A stretch of 64,000 nucleotides of DNA from Synechococcus sp. LTW-R (GTDB taxonomy: Bacteria; Cyanobacteriota; Cyanobacteriia; PCC-6307; Cyanobiaceae): contig NZ_CP059060.1 of NCBI RefSeq assembly GCF_014217875.1, positions 1 through 64,000 on the forward strand, given 5' to 3'. The position numbers and the translations under genes were made by a program. Shown here piece after piece: positions 7,985-50,063 of this stretch (the stretch's first letter is position 1; each line of letters opens with the position of its first letter). The notes beneath the pieces were generated by a model. It saw nothing but the letters and a program-made list of their open reading frames with translations, had not been told where the DNA came from and ran no database searches.

Positions 7985-9343
7985 ATGACCTCCGGCGATC
8001 GCGGTCATCCCCCTGAGCAGTGGGGGTCCTCCCTGGGGTTTGTCCTGGCCGCGGCGGGCAGTGCCGTCGGCCTGGGCAACCTCTGGGGCTTTGCCTACCG
8101 CGCCTCCCAGGGGGGCGGCGCGGCGTTCGTCGTTCTCTATCTGCTGATCGTTGCGGTGGTCTGTCTGCCGGTCTTGGTGGCCGAGATGGTCCTGGGGCGC
8201 AGCACGGGCCATGCCCCCCTTCTGGCGCCGATCACCGCCGGCGGTCGCCGCTGGGCCCCGCTGGGTTGGCTGTTCATGGCCGCCGCGATCGGGATCCTGA
8301 GCTACTACGCCGTCTTGATGGGCTGGACCGGCCGCAGCCTGATCCATGCCTTGAGTGCGCCGCTTCCCGCCGACATTCCCGCGGCTGAGCGCTTCTTCGC
8401 CGGCATCAGCAGCGGCGGCGACGCCGTGCTCGGGCACCTGATCAGCCTGGCCCTGACCGGGGTGGTGGTGGCGGCGGGCATCAAGGCCGGCATTGAGCGC
8501 CTGACCCGCTGGGCGATGCCCCTGCTCTTCCTGCTGCTGCTGGCCTTGGTGATCTGGGCGGCCTTCCTGCCTGGAGCGCACGAGGGCTACAACGGCTTCC
8601 TGCTGCGTTGGGACGCCAGCAAGCTCACGGATCTGACCACGATCCGCAACGCCTTCACCCAGGCCTTCTTCTCGATCGGCACCGGCATTGGCGCGATCTT
8701 GGCCTACTCCACCTACCTCAATCGCCGCAGTGGGATTCCCGGTGAGGCGGTGGCGGTGGTCGGCATGGACACCGCCGTTGGCCTGATGGCCGGCTGCATC
8801 ACCTTCCCGCTGGTGGCCAGCTTTGGCCTGGTGGATGTGGTGAGCAGCAGCACCGTGGGCACCCTCTTCATCAGCCTCCCCACCGGTTTGGCCTCCCTCG
8901 GCGGCGCCGGTCGGGTGGTGGCCGCACTGTTTTTCCTGTTGGCCTATGTGGCCGCGATCACCTCGTCGGTCTCGCTGCTGGAGGTGCCGGTGAGTTCGCT
9001 GATGGATCGCCTCGGTTGGAGCCGCTCCCGCTCGGTCTGGCTGATGGTGCTGCTGATTGCTGTGATCGGCCTGCCCTCCTGCCTGGATGTCGCGGTGCTC
9101 GAGCGGATGGATGCCCTCTTCGGTGGCGTCTGCCTGATCGCCGGTGGCCTGCTGCTGGCCCTGCTGTTGGGCTGGCAGGTGCCCGATCGCTTCCGCACGG
9201 ATCTGCTCGAGTCGGGGTCCTCGCCGGATCTGGTGCGGCTGCTGCGCTGGGCCCTGCGCTGGATCTCCGTGCCGGCCATCAGCCTGGGCCTGCTGATCTC
9301 GATCATTGACCTGGCCAAGAGCTGGAGCGGCGCTGGCGCTTAA
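7985..9343 (+). CDS. Neurotransmitter:sodium symporter family transporter
   Basis: The protein has 452 residues and about 11 membrane segments. The TM1 unwound sodium site is recognisable as GSAVGLGNLWGF at about residues 25-36, and TM6 as FFSIGTGIGAILAYSTYL. It should import an amino acid or similar solute with sodium across the plasma membrane. The TM1 motif normally reads GNxWRF; here the arginine of the extracellular gate is replaced by glycine (residue 35). Bacterial NSS members of this 'sodium-dependent transporter' branch vary in substrate and none can be assigned. It is 51 bases downstream of the DUF368 gene on the same strand. Confidence 0.88.
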   Translation: MTSGDRGHPPEQWGSSLGFVLAAAGSAVGLGNLWGFAYRASQGGGAAFVVLYLLIVAVVCLPVLVAEMVLGRSTGHAPLLAPITAGGRRWAPLGWLFMAAAIGILSYYAVLMGWTGRSLIHALSAPLPADIPAAERFFAGISSGGDAVLGHLISLALTGVVVAAGIKAGIERLTRWAMPLLFLLLLALVIWAAFLPGAHEGYNGFLLRWDASKLTDLTTIRNAFTQAFFSIGTGIGAILAYSTYLNRRSGIPGEAVAVVGMDTAVGLMAGCITFPLVASFGLVDVVSSSTVGTLFISLPTGLASLGGAGRVVAALFFLLAYVAAITSSVSLLEVPVSSLMDRLGWSRSRSVWLMVLLIAVIGLPSCLDVAVLERMDALFGGVCLIAGGLLLALLLGWQVPDRFRTDLLESGSSPDLVRLLRWALRWISVPAISLGLLISIIDLAKSWSGAGA

Positions 9344-40586: not shown

Positions 40587-41060
40587 GTGCCTGCTGGTCC
40601 TGTCTCCCCGGTGCAGGCCGATGCGTTGCGCAGCTCCCTGCATGACCGGGGCCAGCGTCTGACGCCCCAGCGCCAACGGGTCTTGGCCCTGTTCGAGCGC
40701 CTCGGCGAGGGCAGTCACCTGAGCGCTGAGGAGGTGCATCAGCGCCTGCTCAAGGCCGATGAACGGGTCTCCCTGGCCACCGTCTATCGGACGCTGCGGC
40801 TCCTGAGTTCGATGGAGCTGCTCTGTGAACTCGAGCTGCCAGAAGGCGGGCGCCGCTTTGAGTTGGCCAGTGATGAGGCCCACCGGGACCATCACCATCT
40901 GGTCTGTGCGCGCTGCGGCCACACCGAAGAATTTGAGAGCGAAGCCGTGCTGCGGGCCGGCGGCGAGGCGGCGGCGCAGCACGGCTTCCAGTTGCTCAAT
41001 TGTGTCTTGAACGTTCGGGCGCTCTGCCCGAGCTGCGCCCAGCAGGACGCCGAGGGCTAA
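40587..41060 (+). CDS. Fur family transcriptional regulator
   Basis: The protein has 157 residues. The winged helix spans about 25-80 (LTPQRQRVLALFERL, VSLATVYRTLRLL). The metal-binding half has DEAHRDHHHLVCARCG, with structural zinc cysteines C107, C110, C147 and C150 and the regulatory His cluster at 99-104. It could be the iron (Fur) or peroxide (PerR) regulator; nothing in the sequence alone decides this. A second family member, the probable Zur, is at 45927-46328. The start is GTG 40587. The gene directly abuts the small minus-strand gene at 41061. Confidence 0.9.
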   Translation: MPAGPVSPVQADALRSSLHDRGQRLTPQRQRVLALFERLGEGSHLSAEEVHQRLLKADERVSLATVYRTLRLLSSMELLCELELPEGGRRFELASDEAHRDHHHLVCARCGHTEEFESEAVLRAGGEAAAQHGFQLLNCVLNVRALCPSCAQQDAEG

Positions 41061-41266: not shown

Positions 41267-41842
41267 TCAGAGGGGAGCGAGGGCGAGCAGGCCGCCGGCC
41301 AGCGCCAGCAGAGCGGCCCCGAGGGAAGCGCCGCCGCGCTCAAGCCTTTGGCTCAGCCAGGCGCTGGCGCCGACGACGGCGACCGAGCCCAGCAGTGCAC
41401 CGGCCCACCAGAAGGAGCTGCCGCTGGACTCCAGGCCGTGGAGCAGGGCGTGGACCGAAACACCGCCGGCCACGGTCAGGGCCAGGATCTGACGGCTGCA
41501 GAGACCGCGCAGCACCAGAACCAAGACGGCGGCCACGGCGGAGAGCGCCAGGGCTGCCAGCACTTCGGCTCCAGGCAGTTGACCGCCGAAGCTGCCGAAG
41601 ACCGAGCCGATCAGCGCTCCGGCCAGGGCGTAACCCAGGATTTGGCGGCCTGCCTGGGCGGCGCAGAGGCCAATGGCCACCAGCATCAGCAGGTGGTCCA
41701 GACCCAGCAGCGGGTGCAGGGCGCCATCGATGACTCCGTGCTCGGCGCCGCCATGGGCGCCGGCGGGCAGCACCGACAGCAGGCTCAGGCTGAGACCGGC
41801 GGCGGCGCTGCTCAGCAGTGATCGGGTCAGTTTGGAGGTCAT
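41267..41842 (-). CDS. hupE: HupE/UreJ family permease, probable cobalt transporter
   Basis: This 191-residue protein has a signal-like first helix ending at PAGA, then the exposed metal motif HGGAEHG (H30, H35) and the family signature HPLLGLDHLLMLVAIGLCAAQ (H43, D49, H50), with about six further helices. HupE/UreJ proteins move nickel or cobalt. A cobalamin riboswitch directly upstream on the same strand points to cobalt, as proposed for B12-regulated HupE genes in cyanobacteria. The start is ATG 41842, with GGAG a few bases before it on the minus strand region. Confidence 0.9.
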   Translation of the reverse strand: MTSKLTRSLLSSAAAGLSLSLLSVLPAGAHGGAEHGVIDGALHPLLGLDHLLMLVAIGLCAAQAGRQILGYALAGALIGSVFGSFGGQLPGAEVLAALALSAVAAVLVLVLRGLCSRQILALTVAGGVSVHALLHGLESSGSSFWWAGALLGSVAVVGASAWLSQRLERGGASLGAALLALAGGLLALAPL

Positions 41843-41879
41843 GGCAGATCCGGTCCGCGCCGGTACTGAAGGGGAAGGA

Positions 41880-42004
41880 CGGAGTGCGGCGAGCGTTCTG
41901 ACTGGGGAGCGGCGCGCTCCCATCACAGCTGCGGGACAGTGCCGGATTCGCGCCGGACTTTCCTCGTTGCCTTCCTGGGCTGAATCCAGGAAACCGCTCC
42001 CCGG
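41880..42004 (-). promoter_or_regulatory. Cobalamin (B12) riboswitch in the hupE leader
   Basis: Read on the minus strand, the leader contains GAGGAAAGTCCGGCGCGAA, then TCCGGCACTGTCCCGC, AGCTGTGATGGGAGC and AGTCAGAACGCTCGCC in the order of the AdoCbl riboswitch core, including the paired CCGG arms around GCGAAT. It ends about 40 bases before the hupE ATG and starts about 10 bases after the CobW gene's stop. It should lower hupE expression when B12 is plentiful, either by terminating transcription or by masking the ribosome site. Boundaries are approximate. Confidence 0.88.
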
Positions 42005-42013
42005 ATTATTGCT

Positions 42014-43117
42014 TTAGGAGAAACCCTTGCCTGCATCCTTGGCGACGCAGGCCTGGAGTTGCTTGCGGATCTTGGCGTGGTCGAGGTTCTTCCCGATCAC
42101 GACCAACTGGTTCTTGCGGTCGCTGGGCTTGCTCCACTCGCTGTCGTCGATGGAGAAGCGCTTGCCAGCCAGGTGGAAGACGTGGCGCTTGCTGCTCTCG
42201 TTGAACCAGAGGATTCCCTTGGCGCGGAAGACACCGGCGGGCAGCTGGTTGTCGAGGAAGTTCTGAAACTTCCTTAGGGAGAAGGGGTCTGCGCTGTCAA
42301 AGGAGAGGGACGTGAATCCCTCGATGGCGAGGTGATCGGCGTGGGAATGGTCGTGGGAGTGCCGGTGATCGTGGGCATGGCTGTGATCGTGGTCGTGGTG
42401 ATCGTGGGAATGGTCGTGATCGTGCTCATGCACGCAGTGACCGTGGTCGTGGTCGCAGTCGTCGTGGTTTTGCTGCGCGGCCACCTTGTCGCTCTCAAAG
42501 AGGCCAACGCTGAGCAGGAGCGGCAGGCTGACCTCCCCTTTGACCGAGCGCAGGATCCGCGCATCGGTTTTGATCTCCCGCAGCTTCTCCTCCACGGCAG
42601 TGAGGCGCTCCTCGCTGACCAGGTCGCACTTGTTGAGCAAAAGGATGTCGCCATAGACCACCTGGGCCCGGGCCACTTCCCCAACAAGGATTTCGTCGCT
42701 GAAGTTCTCGGCATCGACCAGGGTGATGATCGAGTCGAGCCGGGTCTGATCCCGTAGATCACTTCCAATGAAGGTCATGGCCACCGGCAGCGGGTCGGCG
42801 AGACCCGTGGTTTCCACGACCAGATAGTCGACGGGATCCGGACGATCGAGGATTCGATAGACAGCGTCCAGCAGCTCCCCGTTGATGGAGCAGCAGATGC
42901 AGCCATTGCTGAGTTCGACCATGTCATCGCTGGTGGCGATGATCAGATCGTTGTCGATGCCGATCTCACCGAACTCGTTCACTAGAACAGCGGTTTTGAC
43001 ACCCTGCTGGTTGCTGAGAATGTGGTTCAGCAGCGTGGTTTTTCCCGCGCCAAGGAAGCCCGTCAGGATGGTGACGGGGAGCCCGCTATGGGCCTGATCC
43101 ATCAGGCTGCTGCTCAT
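42014..43117 (-). CDS. CobW/COG0523 G3E GTPase with His-rich loop, probable zinc metallochaperone
   Basis: The protein has 367 residues. The P-loop GFLGAGKTT is at 20-28, the metal-binding GCICC at 72-76, ETTGLADPLPV near 103 and the NKCD base motif near 162. A strikingly His/Asp-rich segment (218-262) of DHDHxH type separates it from the CobW C-terminal domain (LRKFQNFLDNQLPAGVFRAKG). COG0523 proteins with such loops serve zinc allocation under zinc limitation (ZNG1/YciC type), while others serve cobalt. Divergence from znuA across a Zur-like box favours zinc; the B12 riboswitch gene downstream leaves cobalt possible. ATG 43117 is preferred over TTG 43123. Confidence 0.92.
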   Translation of the reverse strand: MSSSLMDQAHSGLPVTILTGFLGAGKTTLLNHILSNQQGVKTAVLVNEFGEIGIDNDLIIATSDDMVELSNGCICCSINGELLDAVYRILDRPDPVDYLVVETTGLADPLPVAMTFIGSDLRDQTRLDSIITLVDAENFSDEILVGEVARAQVVYGDILLLNKCDLVSEERLTAVEEKLREIKTDARILRSVKGEVSLPLLLSVGLFESDKVAAQQNHDDCDHDHGHCVHEHDHDHSHDHHDHDHSHAHDHRHSHDHSHADHLAIEGFTSLSFDSADPFSLRKFQNFLDNQLPAGVFRAKGILWFNESSKRHVFHLAGKRFSIDDSEWSKPSDRKNQLVVIGKNLDHAKIRKQLQACVAKDAGKGFS

Positions 43118-43202
43118 GGTCAAGGCGGCTTGCTGCGGCTTCGAATCGTTCCTAAGTCTGGCTGGTTACGTGCTGGCAGAAAGACCAAGGTTGCTCCAAG
43201 CG

Positions 43203-43217
43203 TGAGAACTGTTATCA
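43203..43217. promoter_or_regulatory. Candidate Zur operator shared by the CobW gene and znuA
   Basis: TGAGAACTGTTATCA is a 15-bp palindrome with six of seven base pairs matching around a central T. It is close to the A/T-rich inverted repeats bound by Zur in cyanobacteria. It lies 86 bases upstream of the CobW start and 23 bases upstream of znuA, in the only divergent promoter of the zinc cluster. Assignment rests on pattern and context. Confidence 0.6.
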
Positions 43218-43239: not shown

Positions 43240-44178
43240 TTGTCGCGCTTTCTGGCGCTCGCCCCTGGGGGAGCTCTCGCTGCCGGCTTGGCAGCTTTTT
43301 CACTTGGGCCGATCGCGGTCGCTCAACCCATTCCGTCTGTGGTAGCGGCGAACGGGATTCTTTGTGATCTTGTTCGAGTTGTCGCAGGCGCAGATGTTTC
43401 TGTCGTCTGCCTTGTCCCGAACGGGGGTGACCCTCACGATTACCGATTAACCGCTCGTGATCGATCGGCGATTCAGTCGGCTTCGGTGGTTTTCCTCAAC
43501 GGTTACCAGTTGAGCCCCGCCTTGGATCGGATCGGGCGTCTGAAGCGGACCGTCAAGGTTGCTGAAGTGGCTGTGCCCTCGAGCCCTCGCCGCGACCCGC
43601 ATGTTTGGCACGACCCCATGCAAGCGGCGTCGATGGCGACTGTGGTTTCGAATCAACTCAAGGGTCTTGTTCCATTACAGGCGGTCGCCGGGATCGGTGC
43701 CCGCGCGTCGCGAGTGCGTTCCGAGCTGAAGCGGTTGGACAAGTGGGCTTCTAGTCAATTCGACACGATTCCCAAAACCCATCGCGTGATCGTCACCGAG
43801 CATGACGCGCTCTCTTCTATGGCTACGCGCTACAAAGTTCGCTACTTGCCCCTCATGCAATCGTTCGCATCGGGTGGCCCCTTGCGTCCAAGCAGCCTCG
43901 GTTCCATTGTGCAGGCTGCACAATCATCAGGGACCAAGTATCTCTTTTCTGAAGCAAAGAATCCCTCCAAAACTCTCAGGCGAATTAGCAAGGTTTCTGG
44001 AGTTCCCATTTATCGGTCTCAATTCCTGTCCGTTGATGGTGTCGCGAATGGCGGGACGTATGTCTCGACATTTGTCTCCAATGTTTGCTCGGTGGTGACG
44101 GCCCAGGGTGGCGTGTGTGATCGCACTTCAGGAGACGCTCTTGGGGCTCAGTGGAAGGCCTTGGGTCGTTCTCAATAA
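43240..44178 (+). CDS. znuA: Zinc ABC transporter substrate-binding protein (ZnuA-like)
   Basis: This 312-residue periplasmic cluster A-I binding protein has a signal peptide of about 28 residues ending AVA. The three expected histidines are seen: H66 in GGDPHDYRL, H121 in RDPHVWHDP and H188 in VTEHDAL, with an acidic residue in FSEAKNPS as the likely fourth. Unlike many ZnuA proteins it has no His-rich loop. Paired cysteines (C42/C57 and two near the C-terminus) may form disulfides. The start is TTG 43240. GC content here is visibly lower than in the flanking genes, suggesting transfer or different constraint. The barrel gene follows 35 bases later. Confidence 0.88.
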   Translation: MSRFLALAPGGALAAGLAAFSLGPIAVAQPIPSVVAANGILCDLVRVVAGADVSVVCLVPNGGDPHDYRLTARDRSAIQSASVVFLNGYQLSPALDRIGRLKRTVKVAEVAVPSSPRRDPHVWHDPMQAASMATVVSNQLKGLVPLQAVAGIGARASRVRSELKRLDKWASSQFDTIPKTHRVIVTEHDALSSMATRYKVRYLPLMQSFASGGPLRPSSLGSIVQAAQSSGTKYLFSEAKNPSKTLRRISKVSGVPIYRSQFLSVDGVANGGTYVSTFVSNVCSVVTAQGGVCDRTSGDALGAQWKALGRSQ

Positions 44179-44213: not shown

Positions 44214-45188
44214 ATGCAAAAACTTCTGATTGGTCTCTCCAAAAAACTCGCTGTCGGCCTCGGTTGCGTTGCATCCTTCACGTTCCCTGCCTCTGCACAT
44301 GGCGGAGCGGAAGGCTCTGATCTAAAGCCTGGTGAATACAAAGCCTCTCCCATCCTCACGATTGAGGGCCACGGTGGTCTGGAAAACAATCTTCAGGGCC
44401 AACCAAGGCACTACGCCATTGACGGTCTGTTTGGAACGGTCCTGGAGTGGGGCCTGAGCAACGAGGGCAGTTTTGCGATTGAGGCGGCTATCGGGCCGGC
44501 GCTGGTTTGGGGTGAAGCGGAGCACTTTTATGGTCAAGTCCATGTTCATGGGGCTGAAGAGGCGCATGAAGATGAACATGAAGACGAGGACCATGCCGAA
44601 GAAGAAGGCCATGACGATGAGGTCGTGACATCGGCTAGCCCTTGGAGACGTACGGATATCAAGGGCTATCTCTCTGCTCGCTACCAGCCGAACAAAAATT
44701 TAAGCATTCAGGCCACCTACAAGCCCTACTACATCACACGTACGCAAGACGAAGATAAGCTTGGTCTTCGCAACGAAGTGCAGGCTGGTGCTACATACGC
44801 ATTTGGCGATGGTGACGTCAACTTCGCCCTTGGAGATGGCTTGGAAAATATTGTTGACGGCATTTTTGTGTCTGCCTACAACAACACCGGTTGGGACAGC
44901 GATGGGACCTATCTGGGTAACTACACCGACACCTGGGCTGGGTTTGGCTTTAATTACGACAAGCTCAATGTGACTCTCTCGGGCGGTCCTCGCTTTTACA
45001 CCCCTGGTAGCTACGCCAACCTCCCCCAGCGCACGGACTGGGGTGGTGAGATCGAATTCGAGTACCCGATCGCTGAGAACGTTGTTGCCTTTGCCCATTG
45101 GGAAGCGATATACAGCTCTCAAAATGGAGAAGGTTGGGGTGTCGGGTTCCAGCACCACATCGGCACGGGTGTCAGTTTCCGCTTCTAA
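44214..45188 (+). CDS. Outer-membrane beta-barrel protein with His/Asp/Glu-rich loop, candidate zinc-linked porin
   Basis: The protein has 324 residues. A Sec signal peptide ends FPASA (about residue 28), and the mature chain opens with HGG. Alternating hydrophobic strands ending in aromatic residues, and a final Phe (GTGVSFRF), indicate an outer-membrane barrel. Residues 102-137 form an insert dominated by His, Asp and Glu (AEHFYGQVHVHGAEEAHEDE and onward), which should lie in an external or periplasmic loop and bind metal. The gene sits between znuA and znuC on the same strand, so metal passage or capture at the outer membrane is a strong inference. I do not know a named family. GC content is low relative to neighbours. 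Confidence 0.82.
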   Translation: MQKLLIGLSKKLAVGLGCVASFTFPASAHGGAEGSDLKPGEYKASPILTIEGHGGLENNLQGQPRHYAIDGLFGTVLEWGLSNEGSFAIEAAIGPALVWGEAEHFYGQVHVHGAEEAHEDEHEDEDHAEEEGHDDEVVTSASPWRRTDIKGYLSARYQPNKNLSIQATYKPYYITRTQDEDKLGLRNEVQAGATYAFGDGDVNFALGDGLENIVDGIFVSAYNNTGWDSDGTYLGNYTDTWAGFGFNYDKLNVTLSGGPRFYTPGSYANLPQRTDWGGEIEFEYPIAENVVAFAHWEAIYSSQNGEGWGVGFQHHIGTGVSFRF

Positions 45189-45237: not shown

Positions 45238-45930
45238 TTGCTTCGCGTCCGCAACCTCTGCGTCCATCGCGGTCAGCAATTGGTCTTGGACCATCTCTCC
45301 TTTCAGATCAACCAAGGCTCCTTAGTCGCCTTGGTTGGCCCGAATGGAGCAGGAAAAACCACTCTGCTTCATGCCCTCGAGGCCCAGTTACCGGTGACCT
45401 CAGGTTCCATGGAATTGGCTGGTTCTCCGTTAACACCACCCCTAGCTCGCAGCCAGATCGCCCTAATGCCCCAGCGGGGAACTATCGATTGGAGCTTCCC
45501 CATCACGGTCCAGGACTTGGTCTCCCTGGGACGGATGTCTGGCCGTCGACCAGGCTGTTGCGACGTTGATGCGGCGCTGCAACGGGTTGGTCTTGCTGGA
45601 TTGGGTAGGCGTCGATTGGATGAACTCTCAGGCGGTCAGCAGCAACGTGCTCTTTTGGCCCGAACGTTGTTGCAGCCGGCAAATCTCTTGCTTCTCGATG
45701 AGCCCTGTGCCGCGATTGACCCTCCCTCTCGCACCAACCTGTTGCAGGTGATGCGTCAACTCTGCGATTCAGGCTTGACCCTCGTCGTCAGTAGTCACGA
45801 CTGGGGCAGTGACCTGGATCGTTACGATCAGGTGCTCGTGTTGGATCGTGCCCTGCTGGCTCAAGGGCCTCCTGAGACGGTCCGGCGCTCATTGGGTGAT
45901 TTGAGAGTCGGCCACGACTGCTGTGGTTAG
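45238..45930 (+). CDS. znuC: Zinc ABC transporter ATP-binding protein
   Basis: The protein has 230 residues. Walker A GPNGAGKT is at 34-41, a Q-loop lies in ALMPQRG, the signature LSGGQQQR is at 130-137, and Walker B LLLLDEP at 150-156 is followed by the H-loop VVSSHDWG. Sequence and context place it in the ZnuC/MntB-type metal ABC group. The start is TTG 45238, 49 bases after the barrel gene. Its stop overlaps the zur stop by 4 bases, because zur lies on the opposite strand between znuC and znuB. Confidence 0.92.
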   Translation: MLRVRNLCVHRGQQLVLDHLSFQINQGSLVALVGPNGAGKTTLLHALEAQLPVTSGSMELAGSPLTPPLARSQIALMPQRGTIDWSFPITVQDLVSLGRMSGRRPGCCDVDAALQRVGLAGLGRRRLDELSGGQQQRALLARTLLQPANLLLLDEPCAAIDPPSRTNLLQVMRQLCDSGLTLVVSSHDWGSDLDRYDQVLVLDRALLAQGPPETVRRSLGDLRVGHDCCG

Positions 45931-46328
45931 TGACTTGGCCGGGACTTGCACTGCTCGCACAGGCCAAAAAACTCCAGGGTGTGGAAGAGCAGTGCGAACC
46001 CCTGGCTGTCTTCCGTCTCGAGGTCGACATGATGCACAGGGCAGCGCTTGAGCACAGCCGTTGTGCCGCAGTCAACGCAGGTGATGTGGTGTTCGTCTCG
46101 CCCCAACGGGGCAAACAGAGCTTCGCCGCTGGGGAGATGTCTGCAGCGGATCTGTCCCCGTTGCTGCAGTTGGCGCAGGTGTCGGTAGACCGTGGCCAGT
46201 CCCATCGGACTGTTGCTGGCCCGCAGACGAGCGTGCAAGTCCTGCCCGGACAGCTCTTGGTTGGCCTCCTCCAAGTGCTGGATGATCAGCTGTTGCCGCT
46301 CGCTAATGCCAGCAACCTGGGAGGGCAT
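45927..46328 (-). CDS. zur: Fur family regulator, probable zinc repressor Zur
   Basis: The protein has 133 residues. The winged helix is at about 8-65 (GLATVYRHLRQL), with structural zinc cysteines C84/C87 and C124/C127, and HH at 80-81 plus CPVHH at 96-100 as sensory-site ligands. Compared with the longer Fur-type protein at 40587, its genomic position between znuC and znuB identifies it as Zur. It would repress the znu genes, and probably the CobW gene, when zinc is sufficient. It is divergent from znuB across only 32 bases, in which I see no clear operator. Confidence 0.92.
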   Translation of the reverse strand: MPSQVAGISERQQLIIQHLEEANQELSGQDLHARLRASNSPMGLATVYRHLRQLQQRGQIRCRHLPSGEALFAPLGRDEHHITCVDCGTTAVLKRCPVHHVDLETEDSQGFALLFHTLEFFGLCEQCKSRPSH

Positions 46329-46360
46329 GCGCTTCCGCCTTGGACGTAATTCCAGATCCT

Positions 46361-47152
46361 ATGGCTGACTCTTGGTGGCTCACACCCTTCGCGATCGCCC
46401 TGGTGGTGGGCATGCTCTGTCCCTTGGCGGGAACGGCACTGTTGATGCAGCGCCGGCTCTTTCAGGTCAATTTGATTTCCCATGCGGTGCTGCCTGGGCT
46501 GGCCATCGCCCTCTTTTGGGGCATTGAACCGGGACTGGGTGGATTGATTAGCGGGGTGTTGTTTGCCTTGGTGGCCGAGCGGATGACCAGCGCTCTTCCC
46601 CAGGGGGATCGCAACCGGGAGGCCGTCCTGAATTCGGTCTTGGCCGGATCGCTGGGCCTTGGCGTTCTGCTCATTCCCTTGTTGGGGATTCGGGTGGATC
46701 TCGAGGCTGTGCTGTTTGGGGACCTCCTGGCCGCGGGTCCCCGTGAGCTGATCCAAAGCCTCGTGGCCTTCGCCGTGATCGTGATGCTCTTGACGCTTCG
46801 CTACCGGCAGTACGTCTATCTCGGGGTCGACCCTGTGGGCGCCCAGGCCGCTGGTTTGCGGGTGAATTCCCTGCGTTTCTTGCTGACGCTCGTGGCCGCG
46901 GTGGCGGTCGTGAGCGCGGTGAGCGCCGTTGGCATTGTGTTGGTGGTGAGTCTCATGGCGGCGCCGGCCCTCTTGGCGATGCCCAAGGCCAGGAGTCTCC
47001 GGCAGGCCCTGTTGCGCTCAGCCCTTTGGGGATTGCTGATCTCCGGCGCTGGTTTCGTTGTTGCGGTGCAACCTGCGATCAACCTTCCCCCCGGGCCCGT
47101 GATTGGGGTTGTGTGCATGGCAACCCTGCCCTTGCAGTTATTGCGCCGGTAG
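46361..47152 (+). CDS. znuB: Zinc ABC transporter membrane subunit
   Basis: This 263-residue ABC-3 family permease has about eight hydrophobic helices. Typical blocks are MLCPLAGTALLMQRRLFQVN at the start, HAVLPGLAIALFWG, and the cytoplasmic coupling region GVDPVGAQAAGLRVNSLRF. It forms the membrane channel with ZnuC and ZnuA. ATG 46361 is preferred to the in-frame TTG at 46340. The gene is separated from znuC by zur on the opposite strand, so it needs its own promoter or long read-through. Its 3' end overlaps the convergent gene at 47138 by 15 bases. Confidence 0.92.
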   Translation: MADSWWLTPFAIALVVGMLCPLAGTALLMQRRLFQVNLISHAVLPGLAIALFWGIEPGLGGLISGVLFALVAERMTSALPQGDRNREAVLNSVLAGSLGLGVLLIPLLGIRVDLEAVLFGDLLAAGPRELIQSLVAFAVIVMLLTLRYRQYVYLGVDPVGAQAAGLRVNSLRFLLTLVAAVAVVSAVSAVGIVLVVSLMAAPALLAMPKARSLRQALLRSALWGLLISGAGFVVAVQPAINLPPGPVIGVVCMATLPLQLLRR

Positions 47153-48451
47153 CCAAAAAGCCTGCTTGATCGGTTTGTCCAGGACCTTCAACGCCAAGGT
47201 GGAGGCCTGAAGCTCTGCCGCACGCCCCAGTGACTCCTTGGGATTGCGCAGGGCCAGCAGCAGCACATCTCGGGTGGGATCCAAGGCAAAGCCACTGCGC
47301 ATTTCCAGTTCCCATCCTTTGAGTTCGCGCTGGGTTTGGACGACGCCCGATCGGTTCATCACTACGACGCGCGGGGTTTGGCTGTTGGTCGCTTGGTCCC
47401 AGTGGGTCAGCAAGAGCCAGATGCGTTCCCCGCTGCGTTCGCAGGCCGTTCCCATCACGGCATCCAGGCCAATCCAGAGCTGCTTGGGGGGTTGCCCGGG
47501 CTCCAGCAGTTCAACGGATTGGCGGTAGTCCGGCCATCGCCGCGTCAGTAACGCTCGGCCCCCCGTTGGACAAACACTGCTCAGGTCGCGGCTCCCCGGC
47601 AGGAACTGCCGTCGCGGTGGGTGGCCCGGGAGGTTGCTCAGCACCAGGCCATCGGCCTCGGGCGCAATCAGTGCTCCGCCTCCCGGAAGCAGCTGAGCCG
47701 TTCCTGAGGCGTCCAGATCGAGGCGCCTGCGTTGCCCATTGGCTTGGATCAACGACGTGAATGAGCGGGCGAACCCTGGAGCTCCCCACTGAATCAACAG
47801 ATCGCCTTTTCTGTTGCTGCTGAAGTGGCTGAAGGTCAGTGGACTCTCGAGCAGTCGCTTGATTCCCTTCACGACAAGGGATTGGGGCTTGGACGCAAAG
47901 GTGGCCTGTTGATCGAGTTCAAGCAGCCAGGTCTCTTCAGTGCGCCCGCCACTGGTGCTGAAGGCAATTCCCGCTCCATTGCCGAGGGGCTCCACGGAGG
48001 TGATGGGGCCGTTGGCTTCGCTCAGGAGTCTCCAGTGGCCATCGCGTCCAAGGAGCTCGAGTTGGTCCCCTTGGGGGCCAGGACTGACGACCACCAGCCA
48101 GGGCCTGGGATCCCACCAGAACTGTTGTTGAGCGAGAGCAACACCGCGTTGATCGGCTCCCCCCAGGACGACCTTCAAGGGGGCTGTGATGGTTTGTCCT
48201 GGATCCAGCAACAGGCGCAGAAGATTGCCGCTGCCCAGCCATTGGTGGGTCAGCGCCGGCTCCAGCTGGCTCGTCTTGGCCACGCTGGCTCGCTCCATGG
48301 GCCGGCTGAATTTCGCGCTGAGCGCTGCAGGTCCAGAGGTGACGGTGCTGGATTCCAACCGGCGGAGTTGGGGCGGCCTCTGCAGCAGAACCTGTTGCTG
48401 CAGTGCGGATAGGGCCAGTCCAGCCGCCAGGAACCAGCGCAGTTGTCTCAT
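47138..48451 (-). CDS. Exported Ig-like/propeller-like hypothetical protein linked to the permease pair
   Basis: The protein has 437 residues. An N-terminal signal or anchor helix (RWFLAAGLALSALQQQVLL) is followed by a short bacterial Ig-like (SbsA/Big_5-type) stretch, AKFSRPMERASVAKTSQ to LLLDPGQTI. After this come about 330 residues of repeated beta units (HWRLLSEANGPITSVEPL, GDLLIQWGAPG, ALLTRRWPDYRQSVELLEPG), which look like a beta-propeller. It is probably periplasmic. Its ATG overlaps the stop of the TIGR03943 gene (ATGA), so it belongs to that operon. I know no named family. Confidence 0.72.
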   Translation of the reverse strand: MRQLRWFLAAGLALSALQQQVLLQRPPQLRRLESSTVTSGPAALSAKFSRPMERASVAKTSQLEPALTHQWLGSGNLLRLLLDPGQTITAPLKVVLGGADQRGVALAQQQFWWDPRPWLVVVSPGPQGDQLELLGRDGHWRLLSEANGPITSVEPLGNGAGIAFSTSGGRTEETWLLELDQQATFASKPQSLVVKGIKRLLESPLTFSHFSSNRKGDLLIQWGAPGFARSFTSLIQANGQRRRLDLDASGTAQLLPGGGALIAPEADGLVLSNLPGHPPRRQFLPGSRDLSSVCPTGGRALLTRRWPDYRQSVELLEPGQPPKQLWIGLDAVMGTACERSGERIWLLLTHWDQATNSQTPRVVVMNRSGVVQTQRELKGWELEMRSGFALDPTRDVLLLALRNPKESLGRAAELQASTLALKVLDKPIKQAFWLPAQ

Positions 48452-49131
48452 GGTTCGAGGGGTTGCTCGGGCCGTGGGATCGATCGGATCTCCTCGGCGA
48501 GCACGATGCTCTGACTCGATCCACTGGTGGTGGTCTCCACGGCCATTTGGCCGCGGATCGAGAGCCAGGTGTCGCGTTGGGGTTTGTAGTCCTCCGGCCA
48601 CCGAATGGGAAGGCCAATCGGAGTGGCATCCGCCAGGCAGCAGCGCACCGTCAGGCGACCCAATTGGGGGCGGCCCCCGTTCGGGGTGTACACGAAGCCG
48701 CTGATGTTGACGGGATCACCGACATAGAGCTGGGGGTCGGGTTGGCTGCGCAATAACCGCACCCAATCGGTCAAGGTCCGCTGCGAGGGGGGGAGGACAA
48801 ATTCCAGCTCCGACGTCCCATTGAAGGCCTCACTGCGACTGGCGGCGAGATCGCTGAAGGACGGATTCGGTGGTGCCAAGAGAACCGCGATAGCCATCGC
48901 GCTGCTGAACAGCCAGGCCCGTTGGGTTTGGACGGACTCACGCCCTGCGGCGGGCTGAAGCCATTGCTGAAGGGCCAGGGCCAAGAGGGCGACACCGCAG
49001 ATCCCCACCAGGGGATGGAAGGCGCCCCTCAGCAGAAGGTCCAGGCGCCCGCTCAGGGTGCTCAGCACTAGGGCGGCTCCCCAGAGTCCCAAGGTCAGCG
49101 GGCGGATCAGAGCAGCCAAAGGTTGACCCAT
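48448..49131 (-). CDS. TIGR03943/DUF1980 (YcgQ-like) membrane protein, permease partner
   Basis: The protein has 227 residues. Three hydrophobic helices in the first 110 residues or so are followed by a soluble domain with VGDPVNISGFVYTPNGGRPQ, LTVRCCLADATPIGLPIR and WLSIRGQM. This matches the COG3689/TIGR03943 family, regularly encoded beside a COG0701 permease, as here. The CC pair in RCCLADA is a possible metal site. The pair has been connected with zinc/Zur regulons in other bacteria (recalled, not checked). It overlaps the permease gene by 25 bases. Confidence 0.85.
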   Translation of the reverse strand: MGQPLAALIRPLTLGLWGAALVLSTLSGRLDLLLRGAFHPLVGICGVALLALALQQWLQPAAGRESVQTQRAWLFSSAMAIAVLLAPPNPSFSDLAASRSEAFNGTSELEFVLPPSQRTLTDWVRLLRSQPDPQLYVGDPVNISGFVYTPNGGRPQLGRLTVRCCLADATPIGLPIRWPEDYKPQRDTWLSIRGQMAVETTTSGSSQSIVLAEEIRSIPRPEQPLEP

Positions 49132-50063
49132 TGCCCCAGTAGCAACACAACAACACTGGCTCCAATCGCGGTGATCGCGATCGCTTTGGGCCGCATGATC
49201 ACCCCAAATAACCCCAGCAATTTGAGGTCCACCACCGGCCCCAGCACCAGAAAGGCCAGCAGCGCGCCCGGTGTGATTTGAGCGGCGAAGCCCAGCGCCA
49301 GAAAGGCGTCCACGCTTGAGCACACCGAAATCACCACCGCCATCAACATCAAGCTGAGGATTGAGAGGGTCGGTGCTCCTCCGACCGCCAGCAGCCAGCT
49401 GCGAGGCAGAAGGGTTTGGACGGTGGCGGCGATCAAGCTGCCCAGGATCAGCAACACCGCCAGGTTGAGAAACTCCCTCGTGCTGTGCTCGAGAACCGTC
49501 CTCAGGCTGGGCCGACTGGGCTCGGCTCGAGGGGGCGGGGGTGTGCCAAGAACGCCACTTTTGCGCTCCAGCAGGCTGGCTTCCTCGAGCGGCTGGCTGA
49601 GCCGGCGCTCCGCCAGGAGGCTCCTTTCCAGCAGTTGCCCCTCGGGCAGCCGCTGCAGCACGCCTGAGAGGACCACGGCCACCAAGAGGGCGCCGAGGGG
49701 GCGAGCGGCGATCAACCAGGGCTGATCGGGGAAGGCCGCCCAGGTGCTGGCCAACACGATGGGGTTCAGGACCGGGGCCGCGAACAAAAAGCCCAGTGCC
49801 GAGCCCATCGAAGCGCCGCCCGCGAGCAGCCGCCGGGCGACAGGGACATTGCCGCATTCGCAGGCTGGCAGGGCAAAGCCCAGGCCGGCACCGCTGAGGG
49901 GCGCCAAGATTGGCTGGTCCGGCAGGCGCTGCAGCCAACGGCCACCCGGCGCGATCCAGCGCGCCAAGCCGGCAATGAGGACCCCAATGAAGAGAAAGGG
50001 CAGGGCCTCAATCAGAAGCCCTTGGAAGATCGCCCAAATCGTCGCGATTCGAGCCAAGGGCAC
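49107..50063 (-). CDS. COG0701/DUF318 permease
   Basis: This 318-residue permease has about eight to ten helices in two related halves. The first half contains ALPACECGNVPVARRLLAGG, the Cys-x-Cys-Gly motif of this permease group; the second contains ISVCSSVDAFLALGFAAQ, with CSS at the equivalent site. The loop between them (about 150-190) is charged. The motif and the TIGR03943 neighbour suggest a metal- or metalloid-related transporter, with direction unknown. The start is GTG 50063. It heads a three-gene operon running to 47138, facing the znu genes. Confidence 0.87.
   Translation of the reverse strand: MPLARIATIWAIFQGLLIEALPFLFIGVLIAGLARWIAPGGRWLQRLPDQPILAPLSGAGLGFALPACECGNVPVARRLLAGGASMGSALGFLFAAPVLNPIVLASTWAAFPDQPWLIAARPLGALLVAVVLSGVLQRLPEGQLLERSLLAERRLSQPLEEASLLERKSGVLGTPPPPRAEPSRPSLRTVLEHSTREFLNLAVLLILGSLIAATVQTLLPRSWLLAVGGAPTLSILSLMLMAVVISVCSSVDAFLALGFAAQITPGALLAFLVLGPVVDLKLLGLFGVIMRPKAIAITAIGASVVVLLLGQWVNLWLL

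Follow-up and report, generated by a model that had tools for sequence, protein, structure and literature searches.

ZnuD of Neisseria is described as a Zur-regulated outer-membrane zinc protein with a His/Asp-rich extracellular loop; it belongs to the TonB-dependent receptors, contains a plug, and had its barrel modelled with 22 strands (PMC2895646, PMC3872050). In Mycobacterium smegmatis the porin MspD is induced by zinc starvation as well as by loss of Zur, and a role in the passage of zinc through the outer membrane was proposed for it (PMC13098993). In Synechococcus WH8102 the gene cluster synw0968–0973 is derepressed in a zur mutant; one of its genes, synw0972, is likely co-transcribed with znuA and goes up at zero added zinc (PMC9337993). 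This gene is the next one after znuA (synw0971), itself under Zur regulation and divergent from znuC; the product of synw0972 is called an ‘uncharacterized protein’, and the terms ‘outer membrane’ and ‘porin’ are absent from the main text (PMC9337993).

In our literature search SYNW0972 was mentioned only in PMC9337993, and no described relative of the protein considered below was found; Barnett 2012 and 2014, outside the scope of this search, may mention the gene. The accessible text of PMC10957091 (on ZepA) has nothing on it, and we found no mention of it in PMC8374608. As to how scarce zinc passes the outer membrane in picocyanobacteria without TonB-dependent receptors, the literature that we found holds no settled answer.

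Here we consider an open reading frame in the window (the whole stretch of DNA analyzed, 64 kb) which corresponds, by gene order, to synw0972. Sequence, predicted model, conservation and gene order suggest that the product of the window gene is probably a TonB-independent outer-membrane zinc-acquisition protein, i.e. a zinc-capturing channel feeding a ZnuA that has no His-rich loop.

The barrel gene and its predicted structure

The open reading frame at 44214–45188 (+) begins with ATG and encodes 324 residues, the last one Phe; from the frame itself, its relatives and a predicted model we annotated it as an outer-membrane 12-strand barrel protein with a His/Asp/Glu-rich loop. Since 39 relatives (93 to 42% identity) share with it 47 invariant columns, the frame is not a chance ORF. 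Phe ends 102 of 106 members of the family (Leu ends three, Tyr one).

A preliminary description, made from the letters of the window, had claimed a signal peptide, barrel-like strands, a C-terminal Phe and a 36-residue segment made mostly of His, Asp and Glu; the last two are present in the protein, and the first two are predicted for it. A helix predicted at residues 2–20 is followed by ASA and then HGG, which fits a probable signal peptide of residues 1–28 (44214–44297, +), as judged from model and sequence; with cleavage after ASA the mature protein would probably start at His29. The acidic segment, residues 102–137 (codons at 44517–44624, +), contains 23 His, Asp or Glu among 36 residues (7 His, 5 Asp, 11 Glu), while elsewhere in the mature protein their share is 14% (binomial tail 1e-11). 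The window protein has a probable signal peptide, an even number of predicted strands and a C-terminal aromatic residue, the features by which outer-membrane beta-barrels are recognized.

The AlphaFold2 model of the window protein is a barrel of twelve strands (mean pLDDT 77, pTM 0.72), with pLDDT below 50 at residues 17–33, 112–143 and 200–213, the loop and a conserved turn included. A second model, computed for a member with a longer loop (genome G267), again has twelve long strands (mean pLDDT 75, pTM 0.69). In both models the acidic loop connects strands 3 and 4 and stands at one rim of the barrel. As the N- and C-termini of such barrels are usually periplasmic, a loop that joins strands 3 and 4 should be extracellular in the model. 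The turn at residues 198–215 (44805–44858; GDGDVNFALGDG) would by topology lie on the periplasmic side; it is one of the best conserved stretches of the barrel, yet the model has low confidence there.

Autotransporter barrels were the nearest solved folds (Z about 18, rmsd 3–4, 221–228 aligned residues), followed by the COG4313 channel (4rl8; Z 16.8), KdgM (Z 16.0) and NanC (Z 14.8). All of these have 12 strands, as the window barrel has; a search of PDB chains found no sequence relation to it (best E 0.92 with the window protein, no match with the profile). None of these barrels is known to have a metal loop. A fold shared with solved barrels shows no function. Viral matches found by Foldseek were generic barrels at about 10% identity.

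Conserved residues and loop variation

As a class, His outside the loop is the most conserved residue type of the barrel: in 40 members each of the seven non-loop His reaches a conservation of at least 90%, six of them without any exception. In 101 full-length members, His104, His295 and His315 are kept in 101, His53 and His66 in 100, His29 in 96 and His314 in 95; Glu51, Asp70, Asp148, Asp208, Asp239, Arg273 and Asp275 are each kept in 100 or 101. By strand alternation in the model, Glu51, His53, His66, Asp70, Glu90, His104, Glu279 and His315 are expected to face the lumen.

Length and composition of the loop were counted from the alignment of the same 101 members. Loop length is between 19 and 170 residues (median 41), and DDH-like repeats are present. 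A net acidic loop is common to all 101 members. At least three His are present in the loop of 95 of them, one or two in a single member and none in five; thus His is the rule in the loop without being essential to it, and the acidic character never varies. The longest loop, of 170 residues (locus L138, 7001–8365, −), carries Lys/Arg-rich blocks amid His/Asp repeats.

These observations bear on an explanation of the gene other than a zinc channel. One could speculate that the barrel merely anchors the loop, a surface sponge raising zinc near the cell, and that ordinary porins carry the ion. Variable loop length and low model confidence in this region would agree with such a role, as would the presence of other porins in marine Synechococcus, where SYNW2224 and SYNW2227 are each named ‘possible porin’ (PMC3865332). 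Conservation tells another story: it is the barrel, not the loop, that holds the conserved residues (the seven His and the invariant Asp, Glu and Arg), and the five members with His-free loops still keep the barrel His. We consider the sponge unlikely. PMC13098993 refers to Barnett 2014 for a Synechococcus porin of the outer membrane that works with ZnuABC; this porin is reportedly SYNW2224, a protein other than the window barrel.

Gene neighbourhood

The barrel gene lies 35 nt after znuA (43240–44178, +; PF01297, 159 bits) and 49 nt before the ABC ATPase gene znuC (45238–45930, +), all on one strand, as the preliminary description had it. The FUR-family regulator gene zur (45927–46328, −), recognized by similarity to WH8102 Zur (7NE9), is antisense between znuC and the ABC permease gene znuB (46340–47152, +); a gene of a COG0523 (CobW) GTPase with a long His-rich stretch (42014–43123, −) diverges from znuA. 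The genes znuC, znuB and that of the GTPase were assigned by family matches.

Co-occurrence of homologues with zinc genes, which had been named as a check, was observed throughout the family. There are 108 barrel loci, the window included; when four with <400 nt of upstream sequence were left out, 99 of the remaining 104 had znuA as the immediate upstream neighbour of the barrel gene, in the same orientation. The gap between the two genes has a median of 45 nt (89 measured loci), and placement of znuC and znuB varies: divergent, upstream, or downstream as in the window. In five loci (L038, L066, L071, L075 and L101), each with 2.6 kb or more of upstream sequence, no znuA adjoins the barrel gene; for L066 and L101 a loop-less znuA is present elsewhere in the genome (L220 and L221), and the genome of L038 (G062) has no close ZnuA (best E 1.4e-8).

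The constancy of this pair has to be weighed against the possibility of a general small-solute porin that came into the Zur operon by chance, with more pores simply giving higher permeability. MspD is a precedent (PMC13098993), and the fold resembles also that of sugar and general porins; still, adjoining znuA in nearly all loci would not be expected of such a porin, and the conserved His pattern and the anionic loop are unlike a non-selective pore, which makes this explanation quite improbable.

Several further genes lie around the zinc cluster of the window. A cobalamin riboswitch (41871–42013, −; 57.5 bits) is ahead of a HupE/UreJ-like gene (41267–41926, −), probably a cobalt transporter adjoining the cluster; a second FUR-family regulator is encoded at 40587–41060 (+). 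Beside znuB there is a pair of genes for a TIGR03943 protein and an ArsP_1 permease (48451–50063, −). In locus L135, genes similar by eye to this pair follow the barrel gene, together with a 440-aa gene that could correspond to synw0973.

Putative Zur control and the metal of the system

A Zur-box-like palindrome, TGAGAACTGTTATCA (43203–43217), is situated between the divergent COG0523 gene and znuA. Scored against the cyanobacterial Zur-box consensus, this putative site reaches 11 of 14 and is the best match in the whole window; judging from its position, the COG0523 GTPase gene may share it with znuA. A sigma-70 promoter scan gave no site. Across genomes we scanned the surroundings of the znuA start, from −250 to +150 nt relative to the first position of its open frame. 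Palindromes that scored at least 10 of 14 were found in 88 of 95 barrel loci (best scores in shuffled sequences average 8.1) and in 45 of 57 barrel-free znuA loci (shuffles average 8.4). As the box is present in barrel-free loci too, it goes with znuA rather than with the barrel.

Between the window Zur and WH8102 Zur (7NE9), 70 of 124 aligned positions are identical, and all four sensory residues, D77, H79, C95 and H115, are retained in the window protein. The metal of the binding protein is less sharply defined. NCBIfam models rank the window ZnuA as MntC (112.7 bits, cut-off 400), AztC (103.9, cut-off 350) and ZnuA (24.7), with none passing, and its nearest solved relatives bind zinc, manganese and iron. 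In this protein family, His at the third ligand position is typical for zinc-type and Glu for manganese-type binding proteins. Because family models and solved relatives are mixed in metal, the assignment of zinc rests on Zur, on synteny with WH8102 and on the third-ligand His, by the general rule just given.

Transport of another metal (Co, Ni, Fe or Mn), or metal export, with zinc genes near by shared control only, would find some ground in the cobalamin riboswitch with its HupE-like gene, in the second FUR gene nearby and in family models that do not fix the metal of the ABC system. On the other hand, the constant partner across loci is znuA, and Zur regulates the syntenic gene of WH8102 in a zinc-linked manner (PMC9337993); we regard the other metals as very unlikely.

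Family, spread and database matches

With the window protein as query (E 0.001 or better), barrel relatives were found in 113 of 400 sampled Cyanobiaceae genomes, its own included; for good genomes only, the count was 70 of 251. A search of the phylum sample with the 40-row alignment gave matches in 26 of 386 genomes, the own genome included; all 26 are Cyanobiaceae, thus no spread beyond this family was seen among the 386. Among 40 relatives of the window genome there were 11 matches, again with its own, all in one genus. A scan of named genomes produced 66 loci, those of Synechococcus WH7803 and RCC307, Prochlorococcus MIT 0701, Vulcanococcus and Cyanobium among them.

In a genus that we take to be that of Synechococcus CC9605 and CC9902, 29 of 34 genomes match the barrel (19 of 19 good genomes, with the gene decayed in one, G288). 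The layout of synw0972 is that of the fetched loci of this CC9605/CC9902 type. The decayed gene of G288 (L219, 3082–3833) has several stops and lies beside an intact loop-less znuA: a natural loss.

The barrel genes form a real, conserved, zinc-linked outer-membrane barrel family. The statement that it has no named family was nearly right; it has to be modified with respect to PF24653 (Phage_OMP), a model of cyanophage OMP-like barrels to which the similarity is weak or borderline. It was the only Pfam match of the window barrel (24 bits, under the curated cut-off of 27); 32 of 40 members hit this model with an E of 1 or less, and of ten members scored two exceed 27 bits (36.5 and 31.5) and one prints 27. 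The match covers 122 positions in the C-terminal part of the barrel, not the loop. The window barrel has no match in NCBIfam and only a chance-level one in PHROGs (E 0.15). Pfam ZrgA is matched by one of 40 members (best E 0.3), and CopB is not among the 12 Pfam families that the 40 members match at E up to 1, so that the barrel is assigned neither to ZrgA nor to CopB/PcoB. In two loci the barrel gene is followed by a further gene of related appearance: in L038 by a second barrel gene (8016–8783; PF24653, 50.9 bits) and in L053 by a 274-aa ORF with a like C-terminus.

A phage or viral origin was considered and rejected: tblastn of the window barrel against 50 697 phage records gave no match, and none of 168 pattern-matched stretches from a viral-contig scan encodes a barrel relative. 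That the protein is a surface barrel with a structural role or one that faces phages, its loop diversified by repeat slippage or phage pressure and its zinc binding incidental, is hardly credible; this view could appeal to the weak PF24653 similarity and the DDH-like repeats, but no relative was found in the phage records or among the viral-contig candidates, and neither pairing with znuA nor the Zur box follows from such a role.

The ZnuA partner and its history

We scored His-rich loops of ZnuA as the His count per 30 residues within the 150 residues ahead of the DPHxW motif. The window ZnuA has at most one His in any 30, which bears out the claim that it lacks the His-rich loop. Adjoining a barrel, ZnuA has at most three His per 30 in 93 of 96 loci (exceptions L041, L119 and L126; 12 of the 108 barrel loci were not scorable), and in barrel-free genomes, taken from among the ZnuA matches listed, it has four or more in 55 of 57 (exceptions L216 and L218).

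This contrast is the strong side of the suggestion, made in the preliminary description, that metal capture moved to the outer membrane. The weaker side is the number of independent events. When 93 ZnuA rows were placed in a tree, three changes were needed for the barrel label and six for the loop-less label, which leaves 2–3 independent pairs; association of loop-less ZnuA with the barrel is therefore mainly joint inheritance and cannot reach significance. Furthermore, among second ZnuA copies fetched from barrel genomes 8 of 9 have a His-rich loop, so replacement of the His-loop ZnuA is not general, and a second, His-loop ZnuA may remain in barrel genomes.

In the window's own lineage a native His-loop znuA was apparently replaced by the znuA–barrel pair, as far as sequence comparison tells. 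Six barrel-free genomes of the same genus have a His-loop znuA divergent from znuC, which is followed by zur and znuB. To the proteins of these six genomes the window ZnuC is 69–74%, Zur 66–68% and ZnuB 66–67% identical, while ZnuA is only 34–38% identical; in the tree it falls with the barrel-linked ZnuA of G023 and G020, apart from the His-loop group. Four genomes of the genus (G005, G008, G013 and G024) have the znuA–barrel pair separate from a native His-loop cluster. It is the distance of ZnuA, with ZnuC, Zur and ZnuB near to genus relatives, together with these separate pairs, that points to replacement. A search of the window genome with a His-loop ZnuA as query found only one other such binding protein, at 473436, with Glu in place of the third His; by the ligand rule it looks manganese-type, thus besides the loop-less ZnuA no zinc-type binding protein was found in this genome.

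Route across the outer membrane and proposed function

In the window genome (G000) there was no match to the TonB-dependent receptor barrel (PF00593), TonB_C (PF03544) or ExbD (PF02472), while controls matched; zinc should therefore pass the outer membrane in a TonB-independent way, which agrees with the earlier claim that the barrel is not TonB-dependent. PF00593 was also absent from Pfam scans of the window barrel and 40 members. TonB-dependent receptors are present in 14 of 222 Cyanobiaceae genomes with 95% or more completeness (208 are without). None of these 14 is among the 113 barrel-positive genomes; of the 14, only G047 is a listed barrel miss, and as they fall in four genera the exclusion of receptor and barrel is a hint only. 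We see the barrel as the best candidate for the zinc route across the outer membrane, with ordinary porins as the alternative.

The interpretation given in the preliminary description is largely supported. Of the three findings that it named as refuting, a fold other than a barrel and homologues mostly away from zinc genes were looked for and not observed; as to the third, a lack of response to zinc, the syntenic synw0972 serves as a proxy and does respond (PMC9337993). Our reading combines computed results (predicted barrel, loop position, conservation, gene order and box) with the response to Zur and zinc, which comes from print by synteny; from these we infer the outward position of the loop, zinc binding, channel activity and hand-over to ZnuA. 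The zinc-acquisition channel would work as follows. Zur would repress znuA and the barrel gene together, so that both would be made when zinc is scarce. The barrel would insert in the outer membrane with its anionic, usually His-rich loop facing out to collect Zn2+; conserved His, Asp and Glu of the inner wall, with the N-terminal His, would guide the ion along the lumen, and on the inner side the loop-less ZnuA would receive it and deliver it to ZnuBC. Against this reading we counted the five His-free loops, the second, His-loop ZnuA, the small number of independent pairs (2–3), the five loci without znuA, the low model confidence in the loop and at turn 200–213, and the mixed metals of ZnuA relatives.

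A wider proposal can be made tentatively, as something that we consider slightly less likely than not. The family might represent a new class of transporter, a 12-strand barrel made passively zinc-selective by an outer His/acid loop and an invariant path of His, Asp and Glu in the lumen, and forming with the loop-less ZnuA a transferable two-gene module; in picocyanobacteria without TonB-dependent receptors the collecting loop might have moved from the periplasm to the surface. Be that as it may, the barrel family is a widespread, Zur-linked candidate beside znuA in many ocean and lake picocyanobacteria, and its probable role is to aid the uptake of scarce zinc where the usual energy-driven receptors are absent.

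Comparison with known systems

By the tests made, neither ZnuD nor MspD is a relative of the window barrel. Msp porins are thought to be octameric, and the searches made gave no mycobacterial relation to the barrel. PcoB (7pge), an outer-membrane copper protein, is like the window protein a barrel linked to a transition metal; as a fold match it is far from the best one (Z 11.9, rmsd 5.1, 190 aligned residues).

In contrast to ZnuD, the window barrel has 12 strands and 324 residues and comes from a genome without a TonB_C or ExbD match; having this strand number, no PF00593 match and no TonB–ExbD system, it does not belong to TonB-dependent receptors. With a loop that is putatively external and a Zur-box-like site ahead of znuA, it may work like ZnuD while not being a member of that family. 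If this is true, a passive, metal-selective route would be added to the known TonB-dependent zinc receptors, and the zinc-collecting loop would sit on different proteins of one pathway.
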